Under the pieces are notes generated by a model. It was not told the origin of the DNA and made no database searches. It was given only the letters and a program-made list of their open reading frames with translations. DNA of 64,000 bases from Dulcicalothrix desertica PCC 7102 (GTDB taxonomy: Bacteria > Cyanobacteriota > Cyanobacteriia > Cyanobacteriales > Nostocaceae): positions 434,001-498,000 of the forward strand of contig NZ_RSCL01000001.1 of NCBI RefSeq assembly GCF_003991905.1, read 5' to 3'. Shown here one piece after another: positions 149-64,000 of the stretch (positions are counted from its first letter, which is position 1; each line of letters starts with the position of its first letter). A program made the position numbers and the translations under genes.

Positions 149-201
149 ACAGAGGTTTCTGTATGTATTTGGACATTTCGGCGCCTATAAGTTTAAATTG
201 C

Positions 202-744
202 TCACATGGTAAAGCTTTTCAACATCCGCACAACAGGCAAAACTAGCCCATTTTTTAATTCAATATTATATTGTTCCACAGCAACATACCCATGCGATGC
301 ATAAAAATGCTCACCTGTCAACGTAGCAACCAATTCAGCACGAGTATAACCTGAAGCAACAATAGCTTCTTCGCAAGCTCTTAAAGTAGCAGTACCAATA
401 CCTTTGCGAGCATGGTTAGGGTCTACAAAAAACGCACGAACCCTCGCTGCATCATATTTTGGGTCAAGTAAAGAATATTCATCTATAGTATGAAGTTGGT
501 CGCTACCATATAGCAATTTGCGATAACTCCATCCACCGCATCCAATTATACCAGTATTGTTTTCTACTACAAAATAAGTACTATCTTTGATAAGCTGACT
601 ATCAACACCAAAAACAGAACCCAAGGCGCCTTCTCGAAGTTCAAGAGAATAATAATCTTTTTGTAATTGGTGAACTGAATGAGGGATAAGTTCATGTAAA
701 GCAGGAATATCCTGATGCGTAGCTAGACGTAATATCCATTCCAT
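202..744 (-). CDS. GNAT-family N-acetyltransferase
   Basis: A 180-residue protein with the GNAT fold, expected to transfer an acetyl group from acetyl-CoA to an amine on a small molecule or protein; the substrate cannot be told. The acetyl-CoA binding motif is clear at residues 103-122, with VDPNHARKGIGTA carrying the R-x-x-G-x-G-type pyrophosphate loop. The C-terminal part GEHFYASHGY (about 144-153) matches motif B of the family. The length is usual for a single-domain GNAT. The ATG is only 8 bp from the ATG of the divergent ABC transporter, so both promoters must lie inside the neighbouring coding sequences, or one start is set too far upstream. Confident for family, not for substrate. Confidence 0.85.
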   Translation of the reverse strand: MEWILRLATHQDIPALHELIPHSVHQLQKDYYSLELREGALGSVFGVDSQLIKDSTYFVVENNTGIIGCGGWSYRKLLYGSDQLHTIDEYSLLDPKYDAARVRAFFVDPNHARKGIGTATLRACEEAIVASGYTRAELVATLTGEHFYASHGYVAVEQYNIELKNGLVLPVVRMLKSFTM

Positions 745-752
745 ACAGTTTT

Positions 753-2540
753 ATGATATTAAACCGCAAAAATAACGGGAAAACACTAACGTTAGACTTT
801 TACCGTAGTCAGGCGCCATTCAAAACTTTACTTCTACTATATCGCCATGATTGGCACAAGCTTTTACTATCACTACTGTTTTATGTAATCAAGCACAGTC
901 CAGAGTGGATACGTCCTGTTGTTTTTGCCAATATTGTTGATATTATCTCTCGACCCCAACAACATCAGTTAACTGAGCTTTGGCTTAACGGCGCCGTTTT
1001 AGCTGTATCTATTGTTCAAAATATACCAACTCATTACTGGCATATTATGGCAATGAGCGCGGCAACTCGCCAAATGGAAGTTAATTTACGGTATAGTTTG
1101 ACACAGCAATTACAGCAACTCAGTATTGGATTTTATAAGCAACGCAGTACTGGTGTATTGCAGTCTAAGCTTTTGCGAGATGTAGAAGAAATTCAAATAC
1201 TAACTACTTATATTTTTCAGCTTGTACCTGCGGCATTATTAACGATTTTAGTTTCTGTGGTAGTTACTGCGATGCGGGCGCCGTGGTTTTTGTTATTCTT
1301 TGTAATTACAATTCCCATTGCAGTAATTTTAGTACAAATTTTGAAGGCGCCGATAACTGAGCGTAACCATAATTTTCGGCGAAAAATTGAAGTAATGTCC
1401 GCGCACTTGATTGAGATGATAAAGCTAGTACCTGTGACGCGCGCGCATGGAGTAGAGGCAACTGAGATGGAACGTACAAGTTCGCATTTAATCTCAGTCA
1501 AAAAAGCTGCAATGCGGTTAGATGGAATTAATGCAGTTACGGGCGCCTCAAGTTGGGTAATATTGCGGTTGTTTCATGCGGTGTGTCTTGTGACATCAGG
1601 TTATTTGGCTTATACAGGTTACGGAGGAATTACCGCAGGTGATGTAGTGTTACTTGCAGGATACTTTGATACACTTACAGGCTCTGTAGTGCAAATACTC
1701 ACAGTACTACCGCAAATGGGCACGGGGTTTGAGTCAATTCGGTCGATAGGTGAAATATTAGAATGTCCAGATATAGAACTTAATCAAGGTAAGCGTATAG
1801 TTGAGCAAGTACAAGGAGAGTTTTTATTCGACGCAGTTAGCTTTGCTTATCCACACAGTTACCATAAAGCGATTGATAATCTTTCTCTTCAAGTAAATAC
1901 TAATGAGACAATTGCTATTATCGGTTCGAGCGGCGCCGGAAAGTCTACCTTGCTAAATCTTATAATTGGTTTTTTGCGACCAACCGCAGGAAGAATTTAT
2001 TTAGATGGGCAGGACATGAGCGACTTAGACTTAAGAACTTATCGTCAGTTTATCTCCATAGTCCCCCAAGAGACAATACTATTTGAAGGCACAGTACGCG
2101 AGAATATCCTTTACGGGTTACAAGGAGTTAGTGACAAGCAACTAGAACAAACCCTTATTGATGCCAACGCATTAGAATTTATTAATAAATTACCGCAACA
2201 ACTAGATACCCTTATTGGTGAAAATGGCGTTAAACTTTCGGGAGGTCAACGTCAAAGACTAGCCATCGCACGCGCGTTAATTCGTAACCCCAAAGTATTA
2301 ATATTAGACGAAGCAACAGCATCAGTAGACACCGCAACCGAAGCATTAATTCAACAAGCACTCGAACGCTTAATGAAAAACCGTACAACCTTTGTAGTAG
2401 CTCACCGACTTTCGACTATTCGTAAAGCCGACCGAATAGTAGTATTAGAAAAAGGAAAAATTGTAGAAATTGGTAATCATCATCAACTTTTACAAAACCA
2501 TAATGGTATGTACGCGCGGTTTAGAGCATTACAAGCCTAA
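753..2540 (+). CDS. ABC transporter, fused permease and ATPase (exporter half)
   Basis: A 595-residue half-transporter of the exporter type, expected to work as a dimer in the cytoplasmic membrane and expel an unknown substrate. Residues about 35-310 form the membrane domain with several hydrophobic helices. The ATPase domain (about 350-590) has Walker A GSSGAGKST (about 391-399), the signature LSGGQRQR (about 495), Walker B VLILDEATAS (about 514-523) and the H-loop VVAHRLST (about 547). All catalytic motifs are intact. It is divergent from the GNAT gene and convergent with a small unknown gene, so no operon partner indicates the cargo. GGCGCC occurs several times within the gene without breaking the frame. 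Confidence 0.93.
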   Translation: MILNRKNNGKTLTLDFYRSQAPFKTLLLLYRHDWHKLLLSLLFYVIKHSPEWIRPVVFANIVDIISRPQQHQLTELWLNGAVLAVSIVQNIPTHYWHIMAMSAATRQMEVNLRYSLTQQLQQLSIGFYKQRSTGVLQSKLLRDVEEIQILTTYIFQLVPAALLTILVSVVVTAMRAPWFLLFFVITIPIAVILVQILKAPITERNHNFRRKIEVMSAHLIEMIKLVPVTRAHGVEATEMERTSSHLISVKKAAMRLDGINAVTGASSWVILRLFHAVCLVTSGYLAYTGYGGITAGDVVLLAGYFDTLTGSVVQILTVLPQMGTGFESIRSIGEILECPDIELNQGKRIVEQVQGEFLFDAVSFAYPHSYHKAIDNLSLQVNTNETIAIIGSSGAGKSTLLNLIIGFLRPTAGRIYLDGQDMSDLDLRTYRQFISIVPQETILFEGTVRENILYGLQGVSDKQLEQTLIDANALEFINKLPQQLDTLIGENGVKLSGGQRQRLAIARALIRNPKVLILDEATASVDTATEALIQQALERLMKNRTTFVVAHRLSTIRKADRIVVLEKGKIVEIGNHHQLLQNHNGMYARFRALQA

Positions 2541-2548
2541 AATTAATA

Positions 2549-5452: not shown

Positions 5453-8174
5453 GAAAAAGTATGGTGAATTGGTGGATTACCTAACAGGAGGCGTAGAAAC
5501 AAAAGATATTAAGAAACAATTAAATAGTTTAAATACTGAAGAGAGAAACCAAGCATGTCGGCACTTAACAACTTACATGAGTGAGGCTCGTCGGTATGAA
5601 CAGCTTTACCAATGGTTGACTAATTTTGATTTTATTGAAGCTAAGATTTCCGCTTTGACTCCGCAAGCGCTAATTAATGATTATGATTTGCTATTACGTA
5701 CTGAAGTTGAGATTTCTGAGGATAAAAAGTATTGTTTAAAGTTAATTCAAGGTGCGTTGCAACTGTCAGCTTCGGTATTAATTCAAGATGCTACTGAGCT
5801 AGTTGGGCAGTTAACAGGGCGCCTGCTATCGTTTGACACACCAGAAATTCAAACGTTTTTACAATCCTGTGCAGCAACTAGAAGCTTTTACTTACGCACC
5901 TTAACAGCTAGCTTAACTCCCCCTGGAGGCGCCCTTGTTCGTACCCTCAATGGTCATAGTGGTTCAGTTAATGCAATTACCGTTACTGCGGATGGTAAAA
6001 GATTAATTTCAGGTTCATCAGATAATACTTTGAAAGTCTGGAACTTAGAAACAGGAGAAGTAATATTTAACCTCTTAGGTCACACTGCCCCAGTTACAGC
6101 AGTAGCTGTTACCTTTGATGGAAGAAGAGTGATTTCTGGTTCCTATGATAAAACTCTAAAAGTTTGGGACTTAGAAACAGGAGAAGAAAAATTAACTTTT
6201 GATGGTCATCGTAGCCGTATAAGTTCCATTCGTATTAGTCGCAAGAGTCAGCAAGTAGTCTCCGCAGAAGAAGATAAAATTATCAACGTTTGGAATCTGG
6301 AAAATGGAGAAAAACAATTTAATTTAAATGGTCATCGTTCTTTAGTAAACACTTTAGCTATAACTTCAAATGATAAATTAGTTATTTCTGGTTCATCAGA
6401 CGGAATTATTAAGGTTTGGAACCTCGAAACAGGTCAAGTAGAATTTACATTCAAACGTCATAATTCGGAAATAAGAACACTATTTATTAGTTTTGATGAT
6501 AAAGAAGTAATTTCCGCTTCTTCAAATAACAATCTTCGACACTGGAGTTTAGAGACTGGAGAGCAACTGTTTAGCTCATCTAAGAATAATGATTGGGTTA
6601 GCACAGTTGCTATTACACCAAATATGTCTACAGTTATTTCCGGTTTATTAGACAATACTTTAAAAATTTGGGATATAGAAACAGGTAAAACAATTTTTAG
6701 CACATCGAGTCATGGTGGCTCAATAAATGCACTTGTTGTTACTCCTGACGGTAAACGATTTATTTCTGCTTCTTCTGACCATACTATTAAAGTTTGGAAC
6801 TTAGAGATATTTAAGCACCCAATTAGTAAAAATGCTCATAATGACTCAATAAACGCTGTTGCAATTATACCCAATAGTAAGCAAGTTATTTCTGCCTCAT
6901 CTGATACTACACTTAAAGTTTGGAATGTAGAAACAGGTAAGGAAGATTTCACTTTTTTTGAACATGCATATGCGGTAAATGCAGTCGTTGTTACCCCTGA
7001 TGGAAAACAAGCTATTTCTGCTTCATCTGATAATACTATTAAGAGATGGAACTTAGTATCAAAACCTTTTTCTAACCTCACTCGTCATAATATTAAAGTA
7101 AATGCAATTGCTATTAGTGGTAATGGTAAGAGTTTAATTTCTGCCTCTAAAGATAATACGCTAAAGCTATGGAATTTAACAACTGGAAAAGGATTATTTG
7201 CATTGTCGGCGACTCTGAAACCAGATAAAGAAATTAATTTACAAAAAAAATACTTAAATTTTTGGTATTTAAAGACAGGAGAAAAAATTGTTTTGAAAGC
7301 TTCTGATTATTCCGCTTTTACTTCTGATGATAAATTTAAGATTAATGTTGGTAAGTATACTATTATAATTTTTGACAATTTTCAAAAAATAGAAATATGT
7401 AATTATCCTCTCTCAGGTAAAAGGACTTATTTTTTATCTATTAATGGTACATTACATATTAATAGCTTATCTATTAATGATGAATCTAAAAAAATGGAAG
7501 AATCTGATTATAATACACGCTACAAAGACATTCGTTTTGACAATTTAATATATTTGGATGAAAATTATAAAAAGATAGAGTATAACTTTTTATTACCATA
7601 TATTGAACGTCAAAATTTATCAGGTTATATTATTAATATATATTATGTAGAAACAAATGAAAAATTAACTTTTAAACAATGGAATACTGTTTTAATTACA
7701 TCGAATGATAAATGGGCTATTATAGCCGCAAACAATAAATTAATAGTTGTAGAAATAGTAACAGGAAACGAAACATGCATTTTTCCTTTTAATAGCAACA
7801 TGAATACTTTATTTCTTGATGATAGTGGCAAGCTCTATCTGACAAAATATGAGAAAAATAAGGATGTAAATAAGACTACAGAATTGATAAATGCTGTAGC
7901 TTTGAGTAATGATGGACTTTGGGCTGCTTCTGGCTCATTGCATCGCGCGCTTAGAATATGGGATTTATTGAGTCACAAAAATGTTTTGACTTTTTATTGT
8001 CATAGAAAGTCAATAAACGCTGTAGCTTTCAGTAAGGATGGATTACAAATTATTACTGCGTCATCAGACAGCACTATTAAAGCTTGGGATATCAAAAATC
8101 AGGCAGAAAATTTTAGCCTTGCAGGTCATAAAGATTCAGTAAACGCTTTTGTTATCTCCTCTTGCGGGAAATAG
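5415..8174 (+). CDS. WD40-repeat part of the split STAND protein, 919 aa
   Basis: Downstream open frame, overlapping the NTPase frame by 14 to 38 bases depending on the start used, so translational coupling is possible. Residues 1-170 are a helical linker (YGELVDYLTGG and following). From about 174 come ten regular WD40 blades with the pattern GH-x-VNA-DGK-ISASSD-KVWNLETG. A degenerate stretch of about 200 residues follows, then three more blades. It ends at an in-frame TAG at 8172. Blade DNA is repetitive at about 126-bp spacing, so recombination between blades is easy. No start has a convincing ribosome site of its own. Confidence 0.7.
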   Translation: MRLLELMKMKFLKKKYGELVDYLTGGVETKDIKKQLNSLNTEERNQACRHLTTYMSEARRYEQLYQWLTNFDFIEAKISALTPQALINDYDLLLRTEVEISEDKKYCLKLIQGALQLSASVLIQDATELVGQLTGRLLSFDTPEIQTFLQSCAATRSFYLRTLTASLTPPGGALVRTLNGHSGSVNAITVTADGKRLISGSSDNTLKVWNLETGEVIFNLLGHTAPVTAVAVTFDGRRVISGSYDKTLKVWDLETGEEKLTFDGHRSRISSIRISRKSQQVVSAEEDKIINVWNLENGEKQFNLNGHRSLVNTLAITSNDKLVISGSSDGIIKVWNLETGQVEFTFKRHNSEIRTLFISFDDKEVISASSNNNLRHWSLETGEQLFSSSKNNDWVSTVAITPNMSTVISGLLDNTLKIWDIETGKTIFSTSSHGGSINALVVTPDGKRFISASSDHTIKVWNLEIFKHPISKNAHNDSINAVAIIPNSKQVISASSDTTLKVWNVETGKEDFTFFEHAYAVNAVVVTPDGKQAISASSDNTIKRWNLVSKPFSNLTRHNIKVNAIAISGNGKSLISASKDNTLKLWNLTTGKGLFALSATLKPDKEINLQKKYLNFWYLKTGEKIVLKASDYSAFTSDDKFKINVGKYTIIIFDNFQKIEICNYPLSGKRTYFLSINGTLHINSLSINDESKKMEESDYNTRYKDIRFDNLIYLDENYKKIEYNFLLPYIERQNLSGYIINIYYVETNEKLTFKQWNTVLITSNDKWAIIAANNKLIVVEIVTGNETCIFPFNSNMNTLFLDDSGKLYLTKYEKNKDVNKTTELINAVALSNDGLWAASGSLHRALRIWDLLSHKNVLTFYCHRKSINAVAFSKDGLQIITASSDSTIKAWDIKNQAENFSLAGHKDSVNAFVISSCGK

Positions 8175-8380
8175 TTAATTTCTGCTTCTTCTGATACGAC
8201 ACTAAAAGTTTGGGATTTACAATCTAAGAAAGAAATCGCCAGTTTTACTGGAGAAAGTAGTATTAATTGCTGTGCAGTTACCTCAGATGGCGCCACAATA
8301 GTTGCAGGGGAAACATCTGGGCGCCTGCACTTTCTTCGCTTAGAAGGCATATAGGTATCATCACCACCAAAGCTAACTTT

Positions 8381-8412
8381 ACTATCCCAAAAATTCCAAA
8401 ATTTGGGATAGT
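8381..8412. terminator. Perfect 11-bp stem-loop after the WD40 gene
   Basis: ACTATCCCAAA at 8381-8391 pairs with TTTGGGATAGT at 8402-8412 across a 10-base loop. It starts 27 bases after the final stop of the full-length NACHT-WD40 frame (8354), so it fits a transcription end for that gene. No long T-run follows, so a repeat remains possible. Confidence 0.5.
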
Positions 8413-8549
8413 AACTGTTTAAACGGCGCCGTTCATTTTACCGTGGCAAAGCAGAATCAAAAATCTGTTGTGCAGTAAGGTTAATATAGGGGAATCGGGG
8501 AGAGATAATTAAGTCGTTACCTCCGTACATTTTCTTTCTGTATTCCCCG

Positions 8550-8750
8550 TCAAGAGCGTTCGCACACAAAGATTGTCGGTTGTTTAGGGTCGCCTATAAA
8601 TTCCCGACTTCCCAATGCGGCATAATCTACAATCCAGTACTCAGGAATGCCCATAATTTCTAGTCCGCAAACTTTTTATGGTAATCGTCCCACCAGTTGG
8701 TGCTTACAACTTCAATTACAAACGGTACTGATGCACCATTCGTAACAAGC
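8550..8750 (-). pseudogene. Uma2 (DUF820) endonuclease fragment with frameshift
   Basis: On the minus strand, VPFVIEVVSTNWWDDYHKK is followed by KFAD and a stop at 8660. In the next frame GIPEYWIVDYAALGSREFIG and DPKQPTI continue to a TGA at 8550. Together they match the C-terminal half of Uma2 family PD-(D/E)XK nucleases, with one base missing between Asp and Tyr-Glu. The upstream half is replaced by hairpin-repeat sequence. This is a decayed gene. An intact relative is at 34656. Confidence 0.75.
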
Positions 8751-8755
8751 CCAAA

Positions 8756-8931
8756 GAAACCGGGCTTCTTGCCAAAAATCTTGCGATGAAACGTTAATTT
8801 TTCGTAAAGAAGCCCGGTTTCTGTTCTAGGTGCAAGATGTAAGTTACGATACTGCCACAACGCTCTTGTCGGTGCGTGACTGCTACGAAAATATTTCAAC
8901 GTAGTTATAAGATTTGTAGCAGTCACGCACC
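8756..8931. repeat. Two nested inverted-repeat elements in the Uma2 remnant
   Basis: At about 8756-8823, GAAACCGGGCTTCTT and AAGAAGCCCGGTTTC are inverted around a short spacer. At 8871-8931, GGTGCGTGACTGCTAC and its exact complement GTAGCAGTCACGCACC form a 16-bp perfect inverted repeat around 29 bases. Both look like small non-autonomous elements that landed in or next to the Uma2 gene. Confidence 0.7.
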
Positions 8932-8946
8932 CTACGGTTTTTATGA

Positions 8947-10554
8947 TTAATTACGTTTGTCTTTAAAAGAGGCAAGAAATTCTTTTACTTGTTCACCTGC
9001 AACTTCACGCGCACCTAAGCCAAATGCAAGAGCAATCGCAACAGCTATGGCGCCGAGTAATAACCCAAATGCTAAATTAACGATATCACTAGCAACGCCG
9101 ATTTGTTGTAATGACATCGCTGAAACCAAAGCAATAATAGCCACTCGCGCGATTTGTCCTAGAATCTGAGCTTGACGATTACCAGAAGCGGTAATAAGAC
9201 TAAAAGCTAAATTTGCAAGAAATAATCCAACGGCAAATACCGCTAACCCCGATAAAATTCTGCCAAAAACAACAGTTAGAGCAGTAACTAACGCTGTTAG
9301 TGCGGGAATTTTTAAGATATCAACAGCTGCAACCGTAGCAAATAACATGATACCTACGATTACCACAGTACCCATGACTTGGGATGGTGTGCGGGTAGTA
9401 GTTGCAGGTGACGGCGCCTTTTGTTGAGTAGATATACCCAGAACAGAAAAGATATTGTCGAAACCAATGCTCGAAAGAATATTAGTCACGAGTTCGGCAG
9501 CAAAGCGCGCTAAGAAGTAAGAAGCTACTACTATAAATGCTGCCGTGAAAATTAAGGGAATTGCATTGAGAATTTGTTGCAGCATCGCAACTGCTGGAAC
9601 AGAAATCGCATCTATTTTTAGAGCGTTCAATGCTGCAATGGCTACGGGAATCAATATCAGAACGTAAACAACCGTGCCAATAATTCCTGACAGTGATTGC
9701 CCTGTAGTTGAACGCAAACCAAACGAGGCGCCTAAACGGTCACCTCCAGCAGACGCAATTAAATTAGTAACAATTCGTTTGACAATCGTAGCAAGCAGCC
9801 AGCCCGCAGCAGCAATTAATACCGCAGCGAGAATATTTGGAACAATCGAAATTATCTCTGTAACTAAAGTCTGTACCGGAAGCAACGCTTGATTTAACTC
9901 TAACGCATTCAGAATTGGCAACAGAAATAATAAAAAGATAAACCAGTAAAGCGCATTACCAATAGTTTCACTTAAAGATAATTGCTTCTGGTTTGACGAT
10001 GCACCATCTTCTAACTGTGAATTCAAACGCTCATCAAGTCTTGAACTACGTAGTCCTTGTACTGTTATTAGCTTGACAACAGTTGCAACCGCCCAAGCAA
10101 CTGCAAGTAGAGCTGCGGCGCCTGCTAATTTAGGAACATATCCAAGTACTTGATTAAGTAAACTATTTAAAGGTTGCGAAACAACCTGCAAATTGAGTGT
10201 TTGTAAAACAGCAACAACAGTAAAGAGAAGAATAATCCAATAAACAAAAGTTGAGATTGCTTTCTCAACTTTAGGTAAATCCCTTCCGTCTGTACGACCT
10301 AGAATACCAGCAGCAATGCGATTATCGATATCAGTACGATTGAGAAGTTTTCGTACAATAGTACTTGCAACCTTAGCAACTAACAAACCAACTAATAAAA
10401 TAGCTACTGCCGCAAGCAATGTTGGTAAAAAACTAACCAATTGTGCCAACAACTGTTGCATATAGTTCACCCCATTATTTAGCGATTGTGTAGGTTGAAC
10501 AGATAAATCCGGTTGTGGTGTTTGTGCCAGTATGCCTTGCCAGGTAATATTCAT
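8947..10554 (-). CDS. MscS-like / conserved TM-helix repeat membrane protein
   Basis: A 535-residue integral membrane protein of the mechanosensitive-channel-related family with repeated conserved TM helices. About five repeats are visible, each a hydrophobic pair followed by a basic, glycine-containing segment, for example PTLLAAVAILLVGLLVAK (about residues 34-51) and PNILAAVLIAAAGWLLA. The soluble MscS beta domain is not evident, so this is the membrane-repeat type rather than a canonical MscS. It probably responds to membrane tension or osmotic change. I chose ATG 10554; a GTG 30 bases upstream is also in frame. It stands alone. Confidence 0.8.
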   Translation of the reverse strand: MNITWQGILAQTPQPDLSVQPTQSLNNGVNYMQQLLAQLVSFLPTLLAAVAILLVGLLVAKVASTIVRKLLNRTDIDNRIAAGILGRTDGRDLPKVEKAISTFVYWIILLFTVVAVLQTLNLQVVSQPLNSLLNQVLGYVPKLAGAAALLAVAWAVATVVKLITVQGLRSSRLDERLNSQLEDGASSNQKQLSLSETIGNALYWFIFLLFLLPILNALELNQALLPVQTLVTEIISIVPNILAAVLIAAAGWLLATIVKRIVTNLIASAGGDRLGASFGLRSTTGQSLSGIIGTVVYVLILIPVAIAALNALKIDAISVPAVAMLQQILNAIPLIFTAAFIVVASYFLARFAAELVTNILSSIGFDNIFSVLGISTQQKAPSPATTTRTPSQVMGTVVIVGIMLFATVAAVDILKIPALTALVTALTVVFGRILSGLAVFAVGLFLANLAFSLITASGNRQAQILGQIARVAIIALVSAMSLQQIGVASDIVNLAFGLLLGAIAVAIALAFGLGAREVAGEQVKEFLASFKDKRN

Positions 10555-11113
10555 AAATTTTGTGAGTTTCACCCTAAATACCACTGAGACTTCAAAATCT
10601 ACCAGTATTTACTCGTAAACCTGTGTCGGATACTATACTTATATTCAAAATTTTCAATAGATGTAGGTTGGGTGGAGCGCGTCTCTACAACATGCGGATT
10701 TCCTAAGACAATCTTACTCGCTGCAAAGCTAAAGGCAATATTTTGGAAAAAATCCAAAATGGCGAATACAAGCCAAAACCTGATGACGAGCGGAATATTA
10801 TAATTTATGCATGGCTACAAACAAATTCTTTAACTTACATCTTGCACCAGCCTAGATAGTTGTAACAATCAAAACTTGTGTATTTGTAGATTACTAGCTT
10901 CGTTCTTACCCGCATAGGGTTGAAAACCCCTATGCTAATAGCGCAAGTCCTCTAAAAGAGGACTAAGAAATCATTGTTATTTTAGCTACTATATATTATT
11001 AATATTGTAGTTTACACTTAGAGGTGCAAGATGTAAGCTATGACGTTCTTGAATTAGTTCCTGCTATCAACCCCAGCAAGACTGATTCCTAGAGCGATGT
11101 CTTTGTAAATTCC
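10555..11113. other. Non-coding stretch with repeats and a possible gene remnant
   Basis: It holds a GTAGGTTGGGTGGAGCGC repeat near 10667 and a stem-loop at 10946-10964 (AGTCCTCT / AGAGGACT). A 50-codon open frame without a start codon lies at 10707-10859 on the plus strand, and its product (NILEKIQNGEYKPKPDDER, IIIYAWLQTN) looks protein-like. I read this last item as a possible fragment of a lost gene. Nothing else was recognised. Confidence 0.35.
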
Positions 11114-11296
11114 TTACAAATTTTGGATTTGAATCCGCAAACTAGTCAAACGTAGGCTATTATCCGGTTCCAGGGTGAGAATAAGTTTCTCACCGGGTTG
11201 CAGTGAGAGATGATGACAGATAGATTCAGGAAGAACAATGTTTCCCTGCTCCCCAAGTTCAATGGTTTGTTGGTAAGGTGTTGACATAGGCGCCAT
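11114..11296 (-). CDS. AbrB/MazE-type DNA-binding protein (60 aa)
   Basis: A 60-residue protein with the SpoVT-AbrB swapped-hairpin pattern: IELGEQGNIVLPESICHHL, then LQPGEKLILTLEPDNSLRL. Members bind DNA as dimers and are often antitoxins; the usual toxin partner would be a PIN or MazF protein. No toxin gene follows directly. The neighbour upstream is an unknown 102-aa protein on the same strand, 79 bases away. A second in-frame ATG three codons downstream (11287) may be the true start. GGCGCC sits at the start codon. Confidence 0.75.
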   Translation of the reverse strand: MAPMSTPYQQTIELGEQGNIVLPESICHHLSLQPGEKLILTLEPDNSLRLTSLRIQIQNL

Positions 11297-11375
11297 TACT
11301 GTTATTAATTAACTAGCATAAGACGATAATGGCGAAACCAAGGGTCAAATAATCGCCCTTGACTTCGATTCGCTC

Positions 11376-11684
11376 TTATGACGTGACGGAACTTGTGCGC
11401 GTTTGTGTAATTAACTTAATAATTTCTTGCGGGGATTTTGCTTGAAGTACTGCCAGTAGGTTTATTGCTTTGGCTATTAATCTTCGACTATCTTCATAAG
11501 TATTTTGGATAGGTAAAACCAGTTGAATGGGGTTGCCGATGTCGTCAGTCCCACCTTGAAACACTAACAGATACGGGTTTGGATGTGGAACAGCCTGCCA
11601 CCCATTGTGATTGAGGTATGATACAATGTCGGCAATTTGAAGAGAATTTATTTGAAATTCATCTTGGAGGATTTGCTCTATCAT
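11376..11684 (-). CDS. Hypothetical protein (102 aa)
   Basis: A 102-residue soluble protein of no family I can name. It has a mixed alpha/beta look: HNGWQAVPHPNPYLLVFQGG, then NPIQLVLPIQNTYEDSRRL and a helix with LLAVLQAKSPQEIIKLI. The start is well supported by GGAGAG eight bases before the ATG. The stop of the upstream remnant (TAA 11685-11687) abuts this ATG, so the two were once translationally coupled. Together with the AbrB-type gene downstream this resembles a small conflict or regulation cassette, but that is inference. Confidence 0.6.
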   Translation of the reverse strand: MIEQILQDEFQINSLQIADIVSYLNHNGWQAVPHPNPYLLVFQGGTDDIGNPIQLVLPIQNTYEDSRRLIAKAINLLAVLQAKSPQEIIKLITQTRTSSVTS

Positions 11685-12106
11685 TTACCACTCTCCTGTT
11701 TTGAGTTTCTGTATTAAAGCTTGTAGTGATTCTGGGGTTAACCGTTGCTGCCGAGGGATGCGAAACTAGTTATCAAATAAAAACCCAATTAGGGAAGCTG
11801 CTGCTGCCAAGCTATTAGATGCTGCATACAAAGTTCTTAACCGCAACGCTCTCTTCATGATTACAACTATTCATTATCAGTTTCGTAAATCCCTGTCAGC
11901 TTATAATTTTGATTGAAGGCGCCGTTTATCATCAGGTACAAACTTGGCAAGATAGAAGAAAACATTTATTAGAACAGATGCTCTTTTAAGTATCAAAATA
12001 TGTATAGGACATATGTAAAGCTATTCCTTCAAAAATCTATTAATATGAAGTCATTACGACTATGTTTAATCTAAGCGAGTTATCTTGACTTTGGGGGTAG
12101 AAGTTT
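11685..12106. other. Gene remnants upstream of the 102-aa gene and AraC leader
   Basis: On the minus strand 11685-11765 encodes a C-terminal tail RIPRQQRLTPESLQALIQKL ending TGEW and a stop directly abutting the next ATG. Just beyond 11766 the plus strand has an open frame, 11769-11915, with NPIREAAAAKLLDAAYKVL, which looks like an unrelated fragment. The two are joined back to back, suggesting a rearrangement point near 11766. The remaining 190 bases contain no gene and lead to the AraC regulator. Confidence 0.4.
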
Positions 12107-13003
12107 ATGATGTCAAAAAGTCCTTTGATGGTTGATTTTACTACAAAAGACGGGGATTCAATGATTTACCCGCGTGCTGCGTTGCTATCAAGTTATGCAT
12201 CTAACTGGGATATTCACTTTCGGTATCATTCTCAACCGCAGTATGAAATGCCTGAACACTCCTCTAACCAAAATTGCATCATCATGCACCATTGTACTTT
12301 GCAATCACCAATAATTGAAACGATTGAAGGGGTGTCTCAAGCAAGTCGTATAAATTGGGGAAAGATTACTGTTTTGCCAGCGAATGTAAGAAATAAGGCA
12401 TTTTGGGAAACGGAGTATGAATTTATTACACTAGCTTTTGAACCAAATATATTTATACAATACATTACAGAAGCGATTGATGTGGATAATGTTGAGTTAT
12501 TGCCAACCTTAAGTCATCCCGACCCACTAATTCATGGTATTGCGTTAGCTCTTAAATCTGAATTGGAATCAAACCAATTAGGTGGTCGTGTATATGTTGA
12601 TTCATTGGTAACAGCGTTAATGGCTCATCTGTTACGTAATTATTCTGTTAAAAACCCTACACAATCTTTCTGTAAAAATGCTTTACCAAAGCGCAAGTTG
12701 CAGCAAGTACTGGACTATATTCACGCTCATCTAGATCAAGATTTAACGCTCTTTAAGTTAGCGGCAATTGTGTACATGAGTCCAAGTTATTTTTCTACTT
12801 TATTTAAACAGTCTACTGGATTGGCGCCGCATCAGTACATAATTCGGTATCGTGTCGAACGTGCCAAGCAACTACTGCTTGAGGGAAAATTGAGTATTGC
12901 AGAAATTTCTACTTTAGTTGGCTTTACTCATCAAAGCCATTTGAGTTACCACTTCCGGCGCCGTTTTGGTAGCAGTCCTAAAGTTTTTATTTCAAGTCAG
13001 TAA
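12107..13003 (+). CDS. AraC-family transcriptional regulator
   Basis: A 298-residue activator. Residues 1-190 form a ligand or cofactor-binding half without a recognisable motif. Residues about 195-296 are the double helix-turn-helix: DQDLTLFKLAAIVYMSPSYF, then FKQSTGLAPHQYIIRYRVER, and in the second HTH LSIAEISTLVGFTHQSHLSY and HFRRRFGSSPKVF. The length is typical. The start ATG-ATG is preceded by GGGGGTAG. Cyanobacterial AraC proteins of this size often control iron or siderophore uptake genes. The porin fragment directly downstream is of the iron-uptake-porin type, which fits but is not proof. The GGCGCC at 12958 falls in the recognition-helix coding region. Confidence 0.9.
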   Translation: MMSKSPLMVDFTTKDGDSMIYPRAALLSSYASNWDIHFRYHSQPQYEMPEHSSNQNCIIMHHCTLQSPIIETIEGVSQASRINWGKITVLPANVRNKAFWETEYEFITLAFEPNIFIQYITEAIDVDNVELLPTLSHPDPLIHGIALALKSELESNQLGGRVYVDSLVTALMAHLLRNYSVKNPTQSFCKNALPKRKLQQVLDYIHAHLDQDLTLFKLAAIVYMSPSYFSTLFKQSTGLAPHQYIIRYRVERAKQLLLEGKLSIAEISTLVGFTHQSHLSYHFRRRFGSSPKVFISSQ

Positions 13004-13393
13004 GAATTTGCTCAACTTGCAAGACGGTTCAACGTATTCGGCGCCAACGTTGAGCTAGCAATTTCACCTTCGTTTGCAGTCTTTGGTCGTTATGGTTTTG
13101 GTAGTTATAATGACACTGCTTTTGGTGACATTGAACCCAGCTACTGGATGGCAGGTATTGCGTTTCCAGACCTTTTTAAAGAAGGCGCCTTAGCAGGTAT
13201 TGCTATAGGTCAACCATTTATTGAAAATGCAGTAGGTAATGCAACTCAGACAAACTTTGAAGCATTCTATAATCTTCCCGTTTCCGATAACATTAGAATC
13301 ACACCGTTAATACAAGTAATTACCAATCCTGCGAACCAAGAAGATAACGGTACAATTTTTACAGGTACATTGCGAACTGTATTCTCTTTTTAG
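13004..13393 (+). pseudogene. 3' fragment of an OprB/SLH iron-uptake-type porin
   Basis: The frame directly continues that of the AraC gene past its TAA. It encodes FGANVELAISPSFAVFGRYG, then IEPSYWMAGIAFPDLFKEGA, and ends NGTIFTGTLRTVFSF with a stop. This is the C-terminal beta-barrel end of cyanobacterial outer-membrane OprB-family porins. The N-terminal SLH domain, coiled coil and most strands are missing, as is a proper start (the first ATG is at 13148). It is a truncated copy joined to the regulator gene, probably inactive. Confidence 0.85.
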
Positions 13394-13443
13394 ACCGCAT
13401 CACCGAGCAAGTGATAAGAGATGTAATGGTACTTTACTACAAC

Positions 13444-13740
13444 TTATTCGTTGCCAAATTGACTTTCAAAATCTCTTGATTGATGCAAAATTCGTAGTAT
13501 TTCAATGCCATCTTCAATTTTGACGTAAAAAACAATATATGGCTTAACTGGAAAGCTTCTGAGTCCATTAAGTAAAGCATCTTGCTTTTTACCCATGTCA
13601 GGAAATTGAGCTAACATGGGCAAACGATTAAGAATTTGAGCGATTTGTTTGTCAGAAGCAAGTGGATTTTGCTCAGTAATAAAAACCCAAATATCCTCCA
13701 AATCTTGTTCAGCAAGCTCCGAAAGTCTATAGGTATTCAT
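13444..13740 (-). CDS. RelE/ParE-family toxin
   Basis: A 98-residue toxin of the RelE/ParE fold: YRLSELAEQDLEDIWVFI at the N-terminus, LPMLAQFPDMGKKQDALL in the middle and the closing strand EDGIEILRILHQSRDF. ParE members poison gyrase and RelE members cut mRNA; the pattern resembles ParE more. It directly follows the antitoxin gene, whose TAA abuts this ATG, so the pair is one operon with coupled translation. The length is full. Confidence 0.88.
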   Translation of the reverse strand: MNTYRLSELAEQDLEDIWVFITEQNPLASDKQIAQILNRLPMLAQFPDMGKKQDALLNGLRSFPVKPYIVFYVKIEDGIEILRILHQSRDFESQFGNE

Positions 13741-14088
13741 TTAATCTTCCTGAGAATGCAACCTGCGTTCTCCTCGCTCTTTAATTTTTTGTAGCAAACC
13801 AGGCAGAGTTTCATCATTATATTCCGTGTACTGCCCATTACGTAATTGTTCGGCTCCTAGGTTAATGTCACGCTGCAAAGCTTCTAGCTTCAGCTTTCGC
13901 ACTTCTGCTTCTGCTTGCTCCAGTCGCTTCTGAGTTTCCTGAAAGCTTATTGCATCCTGAATAACAATTTCTGCTTTGCCGTTAACAGTGAGGACAAGAG
14001 GAGATTTTGTCGCTTTAGTACGCTCTATAAACTGCTTGACATTACGCTTAAAATCTGTTAGAGGATGAATATTTTCTAAATTAATCAT
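13741..14088 (-). CDS. Phd/YefM-type antitoxin
   Basis: A 115-residue antitoxin. Residues 1-55 carry the Phd/YefM DNA-binding fold (HPLTDFKRNVKQFIERTKAT, then LVLTVNGKAEIVIQD). The rest is a long charged coiled coil that should wrap the toxin. It precedes and abuts the ParE-type gene and is expected to repress their shared promoter, upstream in 14089-14180. Longer than the usual 80-90 residues because of the extended coiled coil. Confidence 0.88.
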   Translation of the reverse strand: MINLENIHPLTDFKRNVKQFIERTKATKSPLVLTVNGKAEIVIQDAISFQETQKRLEQAEAEVRKLKLEALQRDINLGAEQLRNGQYTEYNDETLPGLLQKIKERGERRLHSQED

Positions 14089-14185
14089 AAAAAGTATTAA
14101 ATTCAGTACGAAATTAAGCCATAATTAAATACTATAGTAATTATATGCGTTCTGTGCGCTGCTCATCAATTATAATTACTGTTAG

Positions 14186-14536
14186 TACAAAACCAGGCAA
14201 GCCTCAAGACTCCTAAATGGAATAAGATTAAGTCATATTCGTGATTTTAGGAACAAAGGCTATTGTTTTGGGAACCTTAACGAATCTATCACTAAACAAT
14301 TGAAACTGACGACCGGAGCAACAACAGGAAAAAATCCTACGCCTGAGACTATTCGTGAGGGTAGCGTCCGAATGGAACAACACCCCCAATACGAGGAAAC
14401 AATAAAACAAATAAAGGCAGCAGGATTTGAAATTAGAATAAGTAATGACGCTTGTGCAGAAGTAAAAGAGGTTGTGGACTTAAATGGAAACGTACTTCGA
14501 GTTGAAAAAGTACTTTATAGTCCCAGCGACATTTAA
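14186..14536 (+). pseudogene. Unidentified C-terminal fragment (about 116 aa)
   Basis: An open frame running from a stop at 14183 to a stop at 14536 without a good start; TTG 14300 is the only likely one. The product includes GNLNESITKQLKLTTGATTG, then RMEQHPQYEETIKQIKAAGF and ISNDACAEVKEVVDLNG. It looks like the end of a larger secreted or polymorphic toxin-like protein, but I cannot name the family. Its last codons overlap the sigma-J fragment. Probably a remnant. Confidence 0.4.
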
Positions 14537-14819
14537 GCCACTGTATGGTTCTAGCAAAGTAGCTCGTGTTCTAATTGCAATTCGGCGCCATAAACAGTTT
14601 CCTGATTTAATTTCTAATATTGCCTTAGTTAATGGAGAACCAGGAATAGTAAATTATGTAAATGAATCTTTATATAGTACTATTAGTTTGGAAGTAGTTG
14701 AAAGTCGAATTCAATCTATTTTTGTGGTTGTGAATCCTGAGAAATTGGGTGGGTCATCTGGGACAGATACCTACGGGCGTTTTCGGGCAATATTAAAACC
14801 TGATAAGAATCAAAGCTGA
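14531..14819 (+). pseudogene. 3' fragment of a SigJ-type ECF sigma factor
   Basis: It encodes FKPLYGSSKVARVLIAI, then IALVNGEPGIVNYVNE and RIQSIFVVVNPEKLGG. This is the C-terminal SnoaL-like domain of ECF41/SigJ sigma factors, where the NGEPG and NP-KL motifs are hallmarks. The sigma-2 and sigma-4 DNA-binding regions are missing. An ATG at 14484 is in frame but lies in unrelated sequence. In ECF41 systems the sigma gene is commonly next to an AhpD-like carboxymuconolactone decarboxylase gene, and such a gene is present at 16021, so the fragment may be the relic of its original regulator. Confidence 0.75.
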
Positions 14820-14824
14820 ATACT

Positions 14825-14941
14825 GGCGCCAGTTTAATGGCAACAATTGAGCAATCACCTGATGGTGCAACCGAAGCTCAAAGTGTACTTTCTGTATTAA
14901 TTGATGCGAGTATAAAGTACACAAGCATAAATGGAGTTTAA
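14825..14941 (+). pseudogene. 3' fragment of a TetR regulator, paralogue of the one at 16687
   Basis: Beginning exactly at GGCGCC, the sequence encodes GASLMATIEQSPDGATEAQS and VLSVLIDASI, almost identical to the C-terminus of the intact TetR gene (residues about 160-192). Only the last 38 codons exist. The TAA at 14939 abuts the ATG of the amidase. It records a partial duplication of the TetR region. Confidence 0.85.
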
Positions 14942-15628
14942 ATGAAACTTGTATCGTTATTACTATGCTCTGTTAGCTTATTGCTATTTAACTCATTCAC
15001 TTTGGCGCAACAGCAACACGAAGCAAATATCGTTCCAGCAACCGTTAGAAAAACCAAAAACCAAAAACCTTTATCTGATATAAAAATACTAATAAATCCA
15101 GGACATGGGGGTCAAGAAACAGGCGCCGTAGGTGTAAATGGATATTTTGCCAAAAACATAAATTTGAAAGTGTCAAAGCTATTAGCTGTAGAGTTACAAA
15201 AGCGTGGGGCAATAGTAGTGATGACAAGGGATGATGATAGAGATTTATCTTTGAGTGAGCGCCAAGCAATTATAAATCAAGAAGAACCCACTATTGCTGT
15301 TACCATACATTATACTTTTGCAGAAGATGATGAGGATGCAGAAAAAGTTAAAGGAATAAGAGCTTTTTGGTATCATCCGCAATCACAAAGTTTAGCCGTC
15401 TTTATTCATAACTACCTGACTCGCAAACTCGGACGTTCTTCTGGTGGTGTTTTTTGGAATAACTTAGCGCTTACACGTCCAGAAGTAGCGCCATCAGTAG
15501 TTCTAGAATTGGGTTTTTTTAGCAACCCTGAAGAATTCGAGTGGATAACAAACACTGATGAACAAAAAAAATTAGCCTTGACTCTGGCTCTTGCTATTAC
15601 ACAGTGGTTTAACAAAGCTCAGGAATAA
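14942..15628 (+). CDS. N-acetylmuramoyl-L-alanine amidase (Amidase_3), one zinc ligand replaced
   Basis: A 228-residue exported protein with a signal peptide (MKLVSLLLCSVSLLLF to LAQ, about residues 1-22) and an Amidase_3 domain, which cuts the bond between MurNAc and the stem peptide. NPGHGG (H55), the second histidine in VTIHYTF (H123) and the catalytic Glu in VLELGFFSN (E189) are present. The zinc-binding Glu of the usual x-E-K-x-x-N-L motif is Ala here (YFAKNINL, A70). The gene sits inside a repeat-bounded block with fragments, and the missing ligand suggests loss of activity or a binding-only role. Confidence 0.85.
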   Translation: MKLVSLLLCSVSLLLFNSFTLAQQQHEANIVPATVRKTKNQKPLSDIKILINPGHGGQETGAVGVNGYFAKNINLKVSKLLAVELQKRGAIVVMTRDDDRDLSLSERQAIINQEEPTIAVTIHYTFAEDDEDAEKVKGIRAFWYHPQSQSLAVFIHNYLTRKLGRSSGGVFWNNLALTRPEVAPSVVLELGFFSNPEEFEWITNTDEQKKLALTLALAITQWFNKAQE

Positions 15629-15718
15629 ACTTTGTTTTAATGCGCTCGGTAGCTTTCGAGCAATATTAAAACCCGATAAGAACGAAAGCTGAATACTGGC
15701 GCCGCGCGTTGAGAAAAT

Positions 15719-16012
15719 TTATTTATTTTGCCAATGCTGCATTTCTTCTTCGATAAAATAATTAACCAGGTCACTATACATTTTCTCAATTACATCTGGA
15801 TTTAAACCTTCTTCTTGTGCCCAAACACGACGCTGTTGTAACATTGCTTGAAAACGCTCAGGCGCCTTAACACTTGTTTCGCTTGTTTTAAACTTAGATG
15901 CAGCCTTAACATAACCAAAACGTTGACTAAGCAAGGCAATAACTTGATGGTCGATATTGTCTATTTCTGTGCGAATATCTGTCATATTCTCGCATTCATC
16001 AGGTGTTTTCAT
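15719..16012 (-). CDS. PchB-like isochorismate-pyruvate lyase / chorismate mutase
   Basis: A 97-residue AroQ-fold protein that aligns without gaps, from memory, to Pseudomonas PchB. The start MKTP is followed by DIRTEIDNID, YVKAASKFKTSE and APERFQAML. The three active-site residues known for PchB fall at the same numbers here: R14, R31 and K42. PchB splits isochorismate to salicylate and pyruvate and has weak chorismate mutase activity. It lies 8 bases after the AhpD-like gene on the same strand, so the two form an operon. No isochorismate synthase is in the window. Confidence 0.85.
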   Translation of the reverse strand: MKTPDECENMTDIRTEIDNIDHQVIALLSQRFGYVKAASKFKTSETSVKAPERFQAMLQQRRVWAQEEGLNPDVIEKMYSDLVNYFIEEEMQHWQNK

Positions 16013-16020
16013 CGTGCTAT

Positions 16021-16578
16021 TTAAATTGCATTGCTTTCATTGTCCCATGAATAGGGTTTAAATTCTTTATCCACAGGTGTTTTAGCAAGATGGTTTGTAT
16101 AGTTATGGATAACTTTGATAGCTATTCCTAAAATTACTTCTAAAACCTGTTCTTTCGTATAACCAGCATTGATAAATTCTTCAACCTCATTATCTTCCAC
16201 CCAACCTCGTGCTTCAACTAGGCGCCGAGTAAATTTCTGCAATGCTTGTAATTTCGCATTTTCTAGAACTTCCCCATTACGCAATAAATCTATATCGCTC
16301 GGCAACATACAGCTAGTAGCAAGCGCAGAATGTGCTGCCATACAGTAATGACATTCATGTGCGTAATTAATAGTCAAATATATAACTTGCCGTTCAGTAG
16401 GCGTAAAGCTAGTTGTCTCAAATAAATCCCACAATATCATTCCACCTTTCAATACTGGAGGCGCCGAAGCTAAAACTCCTTCAAGATTTGGAATTATGCC
16501 AAACGTATCTTTTGCATGAGCCAGCATTTCTTTGGAAGCAGAAGGCGCCGTTTCTATGGTGTGAACTGTAAATTCCAT
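16021..16578 (-). CDS. AhpD-like carboxymuconolactone decarboxylase family protein
   Basis: A 185-residue all-helical protein with the CMD/AhpD signature HECHYCMAAH (C76, C79, H83), the redox pair and proton relay of alkylhydroperoxidases. Members reduce peroxides or decarboxylate lactones. It is the first gene of a two-gene operon with the PchB-like gene. Its start lies 109 bases from the divergent TetR start, and both TetR-type operators lie between. The family is commonly regulated by SigJ/ECF41 sigma factors; a fragment of one lies nearby. Confidence 0.9.
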   Translation of the reverse strand: MEFTVHTIETAPSASKEMLAHAKDTFGIIPNLEGVLASAPPVLKGGMILWDLFETTSFTPTERQVIYLTINYAHECHYCMAAHSALATSCMLPSDIDLLRNGEVLENAKLQALQKFTRRLVEARGWVEDNEVEEFINAGYTKEQVLEVILGIAIKVIHNYTNHLAKTPVDKEFKPYSWDNESNAI

Positions 16579-16607
16579 GCGTTTTTCCTCGGTGATTAAC
16601 TTGAGGG

Positions 16608-16621
16608 AGACAAACTTGTCT
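16608..16621. promoter_or_regulatory. Probable TetR operator 1
   Basis: AGACAAACTTGTCT is an inverted repeat AGACAA-N2-TTGTCT, 30 bases upstream of the AhpD-like start. An identical copy lies 45 bp further on, in the gap between divergent tetR and AhpD genes. The symmetry, duplication and position are those of a TetR-family operator. Confidence 0.8.
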
Positions 16622-16652
16622 ACATTTAATGAATGCTAGTATATACGCATGG

Positions 16653-16666
16653 AGACAAACTTGTCT
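16653..16666. promoter_or_regulatory. Probable TetR operator 2
   Basis: Second exact copy of AGACAAACTTGTCT with the same flanks (GG before, AC after), 21 bases before the chosen TetR start at 16687. It probably gives autorepression, while operator 1 covers the AhpD/PchB promoter. The longer TetR start at 16633 would put this site inside the coding sequence, one reason for choosing 16687. Confidence 0.8.
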
Positions 16667-16686
16667 ACCTTAATTTATTTAAAAAT

Positions 16687-17271
16687 ATGACCATTGATAC
16701 GAGTGCTGCTAGGCTAAAAATTTTAGAAACAGCATCTGAACTCTTTTATCAAAAGGGAATTCAGCATGTTGGTATAAACGAAGTGATTGCGGAGTCAGGT
16801 GTAGCCAAACGAACTTTATATCGTTGGTTTCCCTCTAAAGATAAGTTGATTGAATCTGTGATGGAACACCGCGCGCAGCAGTGGATTCAATGGTTTGAAA
16901 ATGCTGTTACTGAACGTGGTAACACACCGAAAGAGCGACTATTAGCAACGTTTGATGTCTTGCGAGACTGGTATGCATCACCGGGATTTCGCGGATGTCC
17001 GTTTATTAATGCGGTGTTAGAAATCGCCGATGCATCGCACAAAGCACACCATATTTCAATTGATTTACGTGAATCTATTCGTCAAATTATCATGCGTTTG
17101 GCAGCAGAAACAGGAGTGCAAAACCCAGATGCTTTTTCTAGACAGTATCTATTATTGATTGGTGGCGCCAGTTTGATGGCAACAATTGAACAGTCACCCG
17201 ATGGAGCAACATTTGCTCAAAGCGCGCTTTCAGTTTTAATTGATGCAAGTTTAAATAAAAGTCTTATATAA
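16687..17271 (+). CDS. TetR-family transcriptional repressor
   Basis: A 194-residue repressor. The N-terminal HTH is plain: ILETASELFYQKGIQHVGIN, then VIAESGVAKRTLYRWFPSK. The C-terminal ligand domain includes WYASPGFRGCPFINAVLE, a motif common in cyanobacterial and proteobacterial TetR proteins of the TetR_C_33-like kind. The longer frame from 16633 would add 18 residues and overlap an operator, so ATG 16687 is preferred. It is divergent from the AhpD/PchB operon and very likely controls it. Its 3' end is duplicated at 14825. Confidence 0.9.
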   Translation: MTIDTSAARLKILETASELFYQKGIQHVGINEVIAESGVAKRTLYRWFPSKDKLIESVMEHRAQQWIQWFENAVTERGNTPKERLLATFDVLRDWYASPGFRGCPFINAVLEIADASHKAHHISIDLRESIRQIIMRLAAETGVQNPDAFSRQYLLLIGGASLMATIEQSPDGATFAQSALSVLIDASLNKSLI

Positions 17272-17367
17272 GAGGATTACAAGTCTGCCATTCACATCCC
17301 TTAAAGTCCCTATATATTGAACTCAAATGTTGTTTTGACCGCTATTTCAACGCTATACTTCATAGCG

Positions 17368-17604
17368 ATGAAGCAATTAAGGGGGCACTACCATCGAAGA
17401 GTAGACGATATTTATCAAAAATTGAAAAAAGCAGGTGCAAATGTAGGCGATTTCCAATTTCTTGTGCGAAGAAGCGATGGTGCAGTTTTTGTAAACGACC
17501 CAACTAATTTTGGCTTGCGTAGACAAGGCCCGCAAGGAGATATCCAAAATATTATCGAGCGATTTAAGAAAATATTAAGAGATAAGAATAAAGGAGCAGA
17601 ATAA
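17368..17604 (+). CDS. Hypothetical protein (78 aa), possible toxin-tail
   Basis: A 78-residue basic protein from ATG 17368 (a longer frame starts at 17317): GHYHRRVDDIYQKLKKAG, then DFQFLVRRSDGAVFVNDP and DIQNIIERFKKIL. I do not recognise the family. The short basic domain followed one base later by an acidic small gene resembles the toxin-domain plus immunity layout of polymorphic toxin cassettes, but without a delivery domain this is only inference. Confidence 0.5.
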   Translation: MKQLRGHYHRRVDDIYQKLKKAGANVGDFQFLVRRSDGAVFVNDPTNFGLRRQGPQGDIQNIIERFKKILRDKNKGAE

Positions 17605-63713: not shown

Positions 63714-63751
63714 GCATCTAGATATTTTTACCTGCTCTAGATATGAGTATA

Positions 63752-63782
63752 TGGGACAGGCAGGGATGCCTGTTCCACAAGA
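63752..63782. repeat. GGGCA/TGCCC hairpin repeat after the metallophosphoesterase gene
   Basis: GGGACAGGCAGGGATGCCTG, then TTCCACAAGAG. It lies between convergent genes, as do the copies at 24189 and 58085, a position that fits transcript ends. Confidence 0.8.
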
Positions 63783-63805
63783 GAGTCTAATTTATACTAC
63801 TGTAA

Positions 63806-64000
63806 TTAGACGGCGCCAGTACCTCTACCGCGCTTATCATCATCCATAGTTAGTTCGCCTTCGCTATGGTCTTTAATTGCCGCCAATTCTTCAAGACGTG
63901 CCTGTTTATCTTCTTCAATTACTTGACGGGCATCACCAGGTGTTTCGTAGTACATTTCTGGTTCAACTGCGTAGTTATTTAATAAACCTTCATTGTCTAC
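63806..64000 (-). CDS. Conserved small cyanobacterial protein, partial (C-terminal 64 aa)
   Basis: The frame runs from TAA 63806-63808 off the window edge. It encodes VDNEGLLNNYAVEPEMYYET, then ARLEELAAIKDHSEGELTMD and a basic end KRGRGTGAV. The acidic, helical sequence resembles short photosynthesis-associated proteins of cyanobacteria, but I cannot name it with certainty. The 5' end is outside. Confidence 0.75.
   Translation of the reverse strand, partial: VDNEGLLNNYAVEPEMYYETPGDARQVIEEDKQARLEELAAIKDHSEGELTMDDDKRGRGTGAV

Follow-up and report, generated by a model that had tools for sequence, protein, structure and literature searches.

The palindrome GGCGCC in place of HIP1 in Dulcicalothrix desertica PCC 7102 and its genus

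A 64-kb stretch of the genome of Dulcicalothrix desertica PCC 7102 (the window, G000:C1:434001-498000, counted over its full length) contains 119 copies of the palindrome GGCGCC and no copy of the octamer HIP1 (GCGATCGC), nor of CGATCG. Enrichment of GGCGCC in place of HIP1 is a trait of the whole genus. The word and the kind of element are already published: GGCGCC was named the 'alternative HIP' (highly iterated palindrome) of Calothrix PCC 7103 by Elhai (2015, PMC4390886), the only paper on GGCGCC as a HIP in cyanobacteria or Calothrix that was found in a search leaving most subscription papers outside its coverage. Compared with the parts of that paper considered here, the genus-wide spread, the missing partner nuclease of HindVP type and the dynamics of the sites are new.

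GGCGCC across the genome and the genus

A sequence-only reading of the window had estimated about 120 sites against some 4 expected from base composition. The count bears this out, the first site starting at position 180 and the last occupying 63812-63817 (Table 1). At a GC content of 38.4%, base composition predicts 3.2 sites per 64 kb and dinucleotides predict 5.0, as scaled from a 464-kb sample of the source genome made up of the window and 20 other stretches, each 20 kb long. In this sample, 815 sites were observed, versus 23.0 (composition), 36.4 (order 1) and 32.8 (order 2) expected, an observed over expected ratio (O/E) of 22 over dinucleotides. A Markov expectation that accounts for the count had been named as grounds for giving up the claim; the count is above all orders, including the maximal-order model (119 versus 67.8 in the window, 815 versus 453 in the sample), which includes GGCGC and GCGCC, themselves built from GGCGCC sites. 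Among 8-mers with at least 40 copies in the sample, the 15 most enriched all include GGCGCC. The whole genome (11.42 Mb) holds 19,393 sites, that is 1,698/Mb or about one per 590 bases, and a single copy of CCGCGG, which has the same letters reversed. As for HIP1, 58 copies were found genome-wide, similar to the 62 of its reversed control, so that the source genome does not reach a normal HIP1 density outside the window either. The supposition first made for the window, that another highly iterated palindrome stands in for HIP1, is supported both genome-wide and across the genus.

Sites occur in coding and non-coding DNA, as had been read, yet not at the same density: in 324 kb of the source genome, coding DNA (open reading frames, ORFs, of 100 amino acids or more) has 1,908/Mb versus 1,056/Mb in the remainder. 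All three codon phases are used (265/89/135 of 489 placements). Counts per bin are more even than those of all 22 control hexamers (variance over mean 0.93-0.96, lowest control 1.03).

The family survey comprised 217 genomes, seven of them in the genus of the window (hereafter the congeners, the source genome included unless it is the term of comparison). All seven congeners hold 7,475-20,380 GGCGCC sites per genome (1,150-1,711/Mb), whereas the 210 other family genomes hold 0-1,053 (at most 111/Mb). The named congeners are Calothrix PCC 7103 (G060, with 17,704 sites), HK-06 (G061), C42_A2020_038 (G063), FI2-JRJ7 (G064) and PCC 7716 (G065). In samples from all seven, the O/E was 15-22. HIP1 counts go the other way, 31-163 per genome in the seven congeners and at least 535 in the 210 others, with the exception of G182 (30 copies in a 3.2-Mb assembly, 88% complete). 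In aligned DNA, four comparisons with the source genome show a divergence of about 6-7% of bases and a fifth one of 13%, and the sharing of GGCGCC as the HIP of the genus is most simply explained by inheritance from a common ancestor.

In a class sample of 388 genomes, in which the source genome is the sole member of its genus, no other genome had more than 1,000 GGCGCC/Mb together with a reversed control below one tenth of that figure. Of these other genomes, the densest is G435 (9,489 sites), which was rejected as an independent case because it is GC-rich: in 132 kb its GC content is 53.5%, and AGCGCC (O/E 5.8) is above GGCGCC (O/E 4.0). No GGCGCC excess was seen in G561 (14 kb), G448 (34 kb) or G194 (77 kb). 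The latter (L285-L288), a relative with a 10.7-Mb genome, has only 535 HIP1 copies and no evident substitute palindrome in those 77 kb.

Other short words were also recorded. Alternating (CG)3 and (GC)3 hexamers, put at about 30 in the window by the sequence-only reading, are indeed enriched, with 44 counted (24 CGCGCG and 20 GCGCGC). Among palindromic hexamers, CGCGCG ranks second in enrichment in the samples of all seven congeners (O/E 3.8-9.3), and the two congeners whose GGCGCC O/E is lowest show it most strongly. It lacks the between-species conservation of GGCGCC (kept 0.65-0.75, in most comparisons no better than other hexamers), and was rejected as a second HIP. In the 464-kb sample GATC (113 versus 1,089 expected) and GGCC (69 versus 806) are strongly avoided, and several 6-bp palindromes, for example TGCGCA, GTGCAC, GCATGC and CCATGG, are at zero copies.

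Conservation and decay of sites between species

The 324-kb source stretch and the methyltransferase loci were aligned with five congeners (all except G063) over 189, 148, 124, 65 and 53 kb. GGCGCC was kept at 0.84-0.92 in four of them, versus 0.66-0.78 for other hexamers by GC class, and at 0.75 in G062, versus 0.43-0.54. Non-coding sites were kept in 46 of 57 cases (20/22, 7/12, 11/14, 6/6 and 2/3). In conserved DNA, GGCGCC itself was present 167 times versus 5.0 expected, and its one-base neighbours 22 times versus 101.7 (O/E 0.22, the lowest of 64 palindromes).

When a site was present in only one genome of a pair (285 cases), 69 differed at several bases and 216 at one, and 146 of these 216 were C/T differences at the inner C. 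With four or more genomes to polarise the changes, 51 losses were counted in 801 site-genomes; of these losses, 27 were inner C to T, 15 were single changes of another kind and 9 were multiple. Outer G to A changes within GGCGCC were slower than background, at 0.0044 (background 0.0085-0.0183) and 0.0019 (background 0.0066). An assembly artefact at a methylated base was rejected as the source of the inner C to T losses, since these are found in all six assemblies, three to six in each; in addition, PCC 7716 is described as sequenced on Illumina.

Codon phase could mimic this C/T pattern, and third codon positions inside GGCGCC were therefore set against equivalent positions outside it. Resistance to silent change was about five-fold at position 6 in phase 0 (0.18 of control, 20/488 versus 282/1,229, p 2e-24) and at position 1 in phase 2 (0.21, 8/268 versus 675/4,790, p 3e-9). 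In phase 1, positions 2 and 5 changed at 0.31 and 0.32 of control, in phase 2 position 4 changed at 0.31, and the inner C in phase 0 (position 3) changed at 0.58 (44/488 versus 30/192, p 0.02). Since silent positions change slowly, it is the DNA word itself that is protected, least so at its inner C. Codon phase explains part of the inner-C excess, but not the slow outer positions, and was rejected as the whole cause of the C/T pattern.

The age of the T states was examined with the flanks GG_GCC fixed, on both strands, in four to six genomes, other G_G flanks serving as control. The middle base was C in all genomes in 232 cases, T in one genome in 27, mixed in 8, C in one genome in none, and T in all in a single case. 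For the control flanks, the corresponding numbers were 491, 61, 49, 65 and 627. Inner C to T thus occurs at about the frequency found elsewhere, but there are hardly any old T states. From the side of the source genome, GGTGCC lies opposite GGCGCC at 23/42, 13/38, 12/26, 7/11 and 6/10 sites of the five aligned congeners (34-64%), versus 1.5-2.8% in the control.

A candidate methyltransferase and its missing nuclease

Methyltransferases of the C5-methylcytosine (m5C) class (PF00145) were surveyed, compared and clustered. The source genome has 13 matches and each congener 9-17, fragments included, and three widely shared families stand out: L017, L019/L021 and L012. The search that the sequence-only reading had proposed yielded a candidate predicted to cover GGCGCC, the L012 enzyme, of GRCGYC type rather than strictly GGCGCC; no strict GGCGCC-specific enzyme was identified among the m5C methyltransferases surveyed.

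The L012 gene (Table 1) encodes a C5-cytosine methyltransferase domain (PF00145, E-value 8e-66, residues 13-304 of 312). Its family is present in all seven congeners; Calothrix PCC 7103 has two members, and G061 one intact copy plus two end-of-contig pieces of another. The GRCGYC specificity is suggested by partner, target domain and site avoidance. At loci of the family outside the genus, a neighbour of 366-381 amino acids was found at 7 of the 13 fetched (split into pieces in two), and the three such neighbours scanned were all RE_HindVP (PF09519, E-values 1e-156 to 2e-151). Neely and Roberts (2008, PMC2413257) place HindVP, which itself was found to be inactive, in one group with the GRCGYC enzymes BsaHI and HgiDI. 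In an alignment, the target domain was nearly invariant across eight enzymes of the genus and three RE_HindVP-linked enzymes from outside, with Gly/Ala where, on our interpretation of the spacing, Neely and Roberts tie Gly/Ala to the degenerate base. Finally, genomes outside the genus with L012 relatives have less GACGTC (median 1.0 versus 5.8/Mb, p 3e-7) and less GGCGCC (1.1 versus 5.0/Mb, p 9e-4), with no deficit of CTGCAG (p 0.27) or HIP1 (p 0.79).

The cognate nuclease that would make up a complete HindVP restriction-modification system was not found in the genus: none of the seven congeners matched one cyanobacterial RE_HindVP query, in a search without a positive control. At six of the seven genus loci the conserved neighbour of L012 is instead a RuBisCO-like gene (one of six scanned), whose best NCBIfam matches are MtnW-type enolases, below cut-offs. 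The system resembles the BsaHI/HgiDI/HindVP systems (PMC2413257, as far as described in the part considered) in its methyltransferase family: it is this family that adjoins RE_HindVP in other cyanobacteria, and its target domain there is almost identical. The system of the genus differs from them in having no nuclease match and in that one of the GRCGYC words, GGCGCC, is enriched, not avoided.

The L019/L021 family is intact in six of the seven congeners, with a fragment in G061, and present in 24/210 other genomes. It was rejected as a GRCGYC enzyme, as one copy lies next to RE_Eco29kI (PF09517, E-value 7e-61), which we take to be a CCGCGG-type nuclease. The scarcity of CCGCGG in the genus (1-8 copies per genome) fits this Eco29kI-type assignment, which rests on that one scanned neighbour; ORFs with a similar start adjoin four further copies, and the G062 neighbour matched no Pfam family. 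Two copies of the Eco29kI-type pair are present in the source genome (the nuclease of the first was scanned), and in HK-06 (G061) the Eco29kI-type methyltransferase is a C-terminal fragment split over two frames. Other m5C methyltransferases adjoin nucleases of BsuBI/PstI, Bpu10I (both in the source genome) and TdeIII type (G060).

Table 1. Location of GGCGCC sites in the window and of genes mentioned in the text
Feature	Location	Strand	Remarks
GGCGCC copies	180..63817	.	6 bp each, n=119, sequence count
GGCGCC first bases	180, 625, 812, 990, 1277, 1346, 1542, 1932, 3068, 3356, 5818, 5928, 8289, 8320, 8425		
GGCGCC first bases, continued	9049, 9413, 9727, 10117, 11289, 11918, 12823, 12957, 13040, 13184, 14584, 14825, 15122, 15698, 15861		
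GGCGCC first bases, continued	16221, 16460, 16544, 17164, 18333, 18937, 19034, 20197, 20276, 21216, 21348, 21480, 22408, 24046, 24667		
GGCGCC first bases, continued	24835, 24865, 25057, 25420, 25834, 26405, 26457, 26582, 26973, 27364, 27459, 27552, 27591, 27765, 28919		
GGCGCC first bases, continued	31356, 32300, 32456, 33390, 33830, 33988, 35732, 37048, 37349, 37367, 37460, 38058, 38738, 38895, 39251		
GGCGCC first bases, continued	39708, 39826, 40410, 41571, 41855, 42054, 46058, 46609, 46871, 47926, 48029, 48208, 48776, 49057, 49774		
GGCGCC first bases, continued	50182, 50315, 50489, 50734, 51384, 51647, 51742, 52131, 52542, 52710, 53711, 54416, 54889, 55511, 56817		
GGCGCC first bases, end	56937, 58025, 59254, 59555, 59701, 60229, 61436, 61497, 61783, 61853, 63110, 63580, 63692, 63812		
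L012 methyltransferase gene	G000:C4:441736-442671 = L012:1477-2412	minus	outside the window
RuBisCO-like gene	L123:2535-3758	minus	
Eco29kI-type pair, first copy	L101:3149-4983		source genome
Eco29kI-type pair, second copy	L102:4885-6744		source genome
Eco29kI-type methyltransferase fragment	L083 / L197		G061
m5C methyltransferase, BsuBI/PstI-type neighbour	L015:398-2433		source genome
m5C methyltransferase, TdeIII-type neighbour	L029:1462-3459		G060
m5C methyltransferase, Bpu10I-type neighbour	L010:512-2700		source genome

How the word may be maintained

GGCGCC in this genus resembles HIP1 as a dense GC-rich palindrome spread across the whole genome, and differs from it in sequence, HIP1 being near background here. 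Extreme over-representation, a density of 1,698/Mb, near absence of HIP1 and a predicted methyltransferase are all found, as for an alternative HIP: HIP densities are about 500-2,500 per Mb, HIP1 is linked to solitary methyltransferases, and PCC 7103 was given two GrCGyC enzymes (Elhai 2015, PMC4390886). The likeness to the alternative HIP of PCC 7103 thus covers the word, the lack of HIP1, a density within range and GRCGYC-type methyltransferases. Unlike the description of PCC 7103 in the part of that paper considered, the present case concerns seven species rather than one strain, and a nuclease partner was identified to which no congener showed a match; the measurements of site gain, site loss and silent-site conservation made here go beyond that description.

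A restriction-modification system may have lost its nuclease while its GRCGYC-type methyltransferase remained. The L012 enzyme would recognise GRCGYC and methylate the inner C, to give GGmCGCC. The methylated position, which Elhai (2015, PMC4390886), in the part consulted, held to be unknown for any GRCGYC enzyme, is the central C in the case of M.BsaHI (Neely and Roberts 2008, PMC2413257). The observations are consistent with a methylated inner C in a word whose decayed copies are either restored or purged. The methylated C would be prone to deamination, making GGTGCC the main decay route, and methyl-guided mismatch repair, as in the GmC-directed ratchet of Elhai, would return damaged sites to GGCGCC. 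The same repair would convert near misses into GGCGCC, and the word would maintain itself as a by-product of restriction-modification. The ratchet predicts site protection, near-miss conversion and a limit on density (Elhai 2015, PMC4390886). An unreduced C to T together with missing old T states favours restoration, and we prefer methylation-linked maintenance by biased repair to weak selection, a judgement that we hold at about an even chance. The fuller account, in which the nuclease was lost in the ancestor of the genus and the methyltransferase then drove a self-maintaining genome-wide word, biased repair restoring GGCGCC from GGTGCC and near misses much faster than background, is proposed tentatively, as a possibility falling somewhat short of even.

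Several observations weigh against this account. Against the 51 losses stand four gains, all multi-step, and the 116 site-genomes of one-base neighbours yielded no gain in a single step; restoration is for this reason inferred from the age of the T states, and net loss is possible. The inner C to T rate (0.0169) is only slightly above that of other GCG sites (0.0135). At the wobble inner C in phase 0, C to T is not above control (39/488 versus 20/192), so that part of the C/T excess is due to codon phase. In conservation GGCGCC belongs with the top hexamers without always leading them, ranking 74/2,947, 208/2,452, 9/2,022, 40/781 and 4/497; the non-coding sites kept in G060 (7/12) fall below the 0.675 of other hexamers, in data that are few and mixed; and gaps between sites, examined as a sign of local saturation, are near exponential, close to random (coefficient of variation 1.03, Kolmogorov-Smirnov p 0.025). 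Concerning the enzyme, L012 relatives occur in 55/210 family genomes outside the genus without the motif, fragments included, and the enzyme is therefore not sufficient for it. Other GRCGYC words are depleted in the 464-kb sample (GACGTC 4 versus 38.8, GGCGTC 11 versus 37.6), and CCGCGG also differs with the presence of L012 relatives (p 6e-4), in statistics that ignore kinship.

The closest rival is weak purifying selection for a role that the site would play as a repair, recombination, nucleoid or replication signal, with methylation making the inner C mutable and hiding selection there, and without repair bias. Slow outer silent positions in all phases, depleted one-base neighbours and missing old T states are equally expected under it, and weak selection also predicts site protection and near-miss conversion. 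Selection on HIP1 itself has been argued (Elhai 2015, PMC4390886). Selection alone would, however, lower inner C to T losses, which are about those of other CpG-type sites (27 per 232 all-C versus 61 per 491). It needs a raised mutation rate at the inner C because these losses are unreduced, and its reach would have to extend to about 19,000 sites. Selection combined with a hypermutable methyl-C yields the same picture as restoration, and we regard this rival as quite conceivable, if rather doubtful. Xu and colleagues have reportedly devoted a later paper to selection for HIP1.

It is unlikely that another enzyme marks GGCGCC, either a different m5C methyltransferase, for instance of the L017 family (370 amino acids), or an N4-cytosine methyltransferase. 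L017 is also present in all seven congeners, but it occurs in 170/217 family genomes, nearly all without the motif, and the GRCGYC link belongs to the L012 family. That base composition, Gly-Ala codon pairs or a repeat family explain the count is very improbable: phase 0 (GGC GCC) is the commonest placement, but the O/E over dinucleotides, the use of all three phases and of non-coding DNA, the silent-site conservation and the lone CCGCGG all go against it.

The fuller account, with biased repair driving the word after nuclease loss in the ancestor of the genus, would, if true, make HIPs by-products of repair and not functional signals; gene loss would switch them, and they would persist through speciation. 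It bears on an argument of Elhai (2015, PMC4390886), at least as put in the part considered here: exceptional HIPs occur sporadically without persisting in clades, from which it is concluded that HIP1 is selected. The genus-wide sharing of GGCGCC contrasts with that sporadic distribution. A genus with a swapped word kept through speciation, and a methyltransferase without its nuclease, provides a natural experiment on the origin of HIPs, in which comparison of the congeners can reveal the gain, decay and restoration of sites and a single gene stands as the candidate driver.

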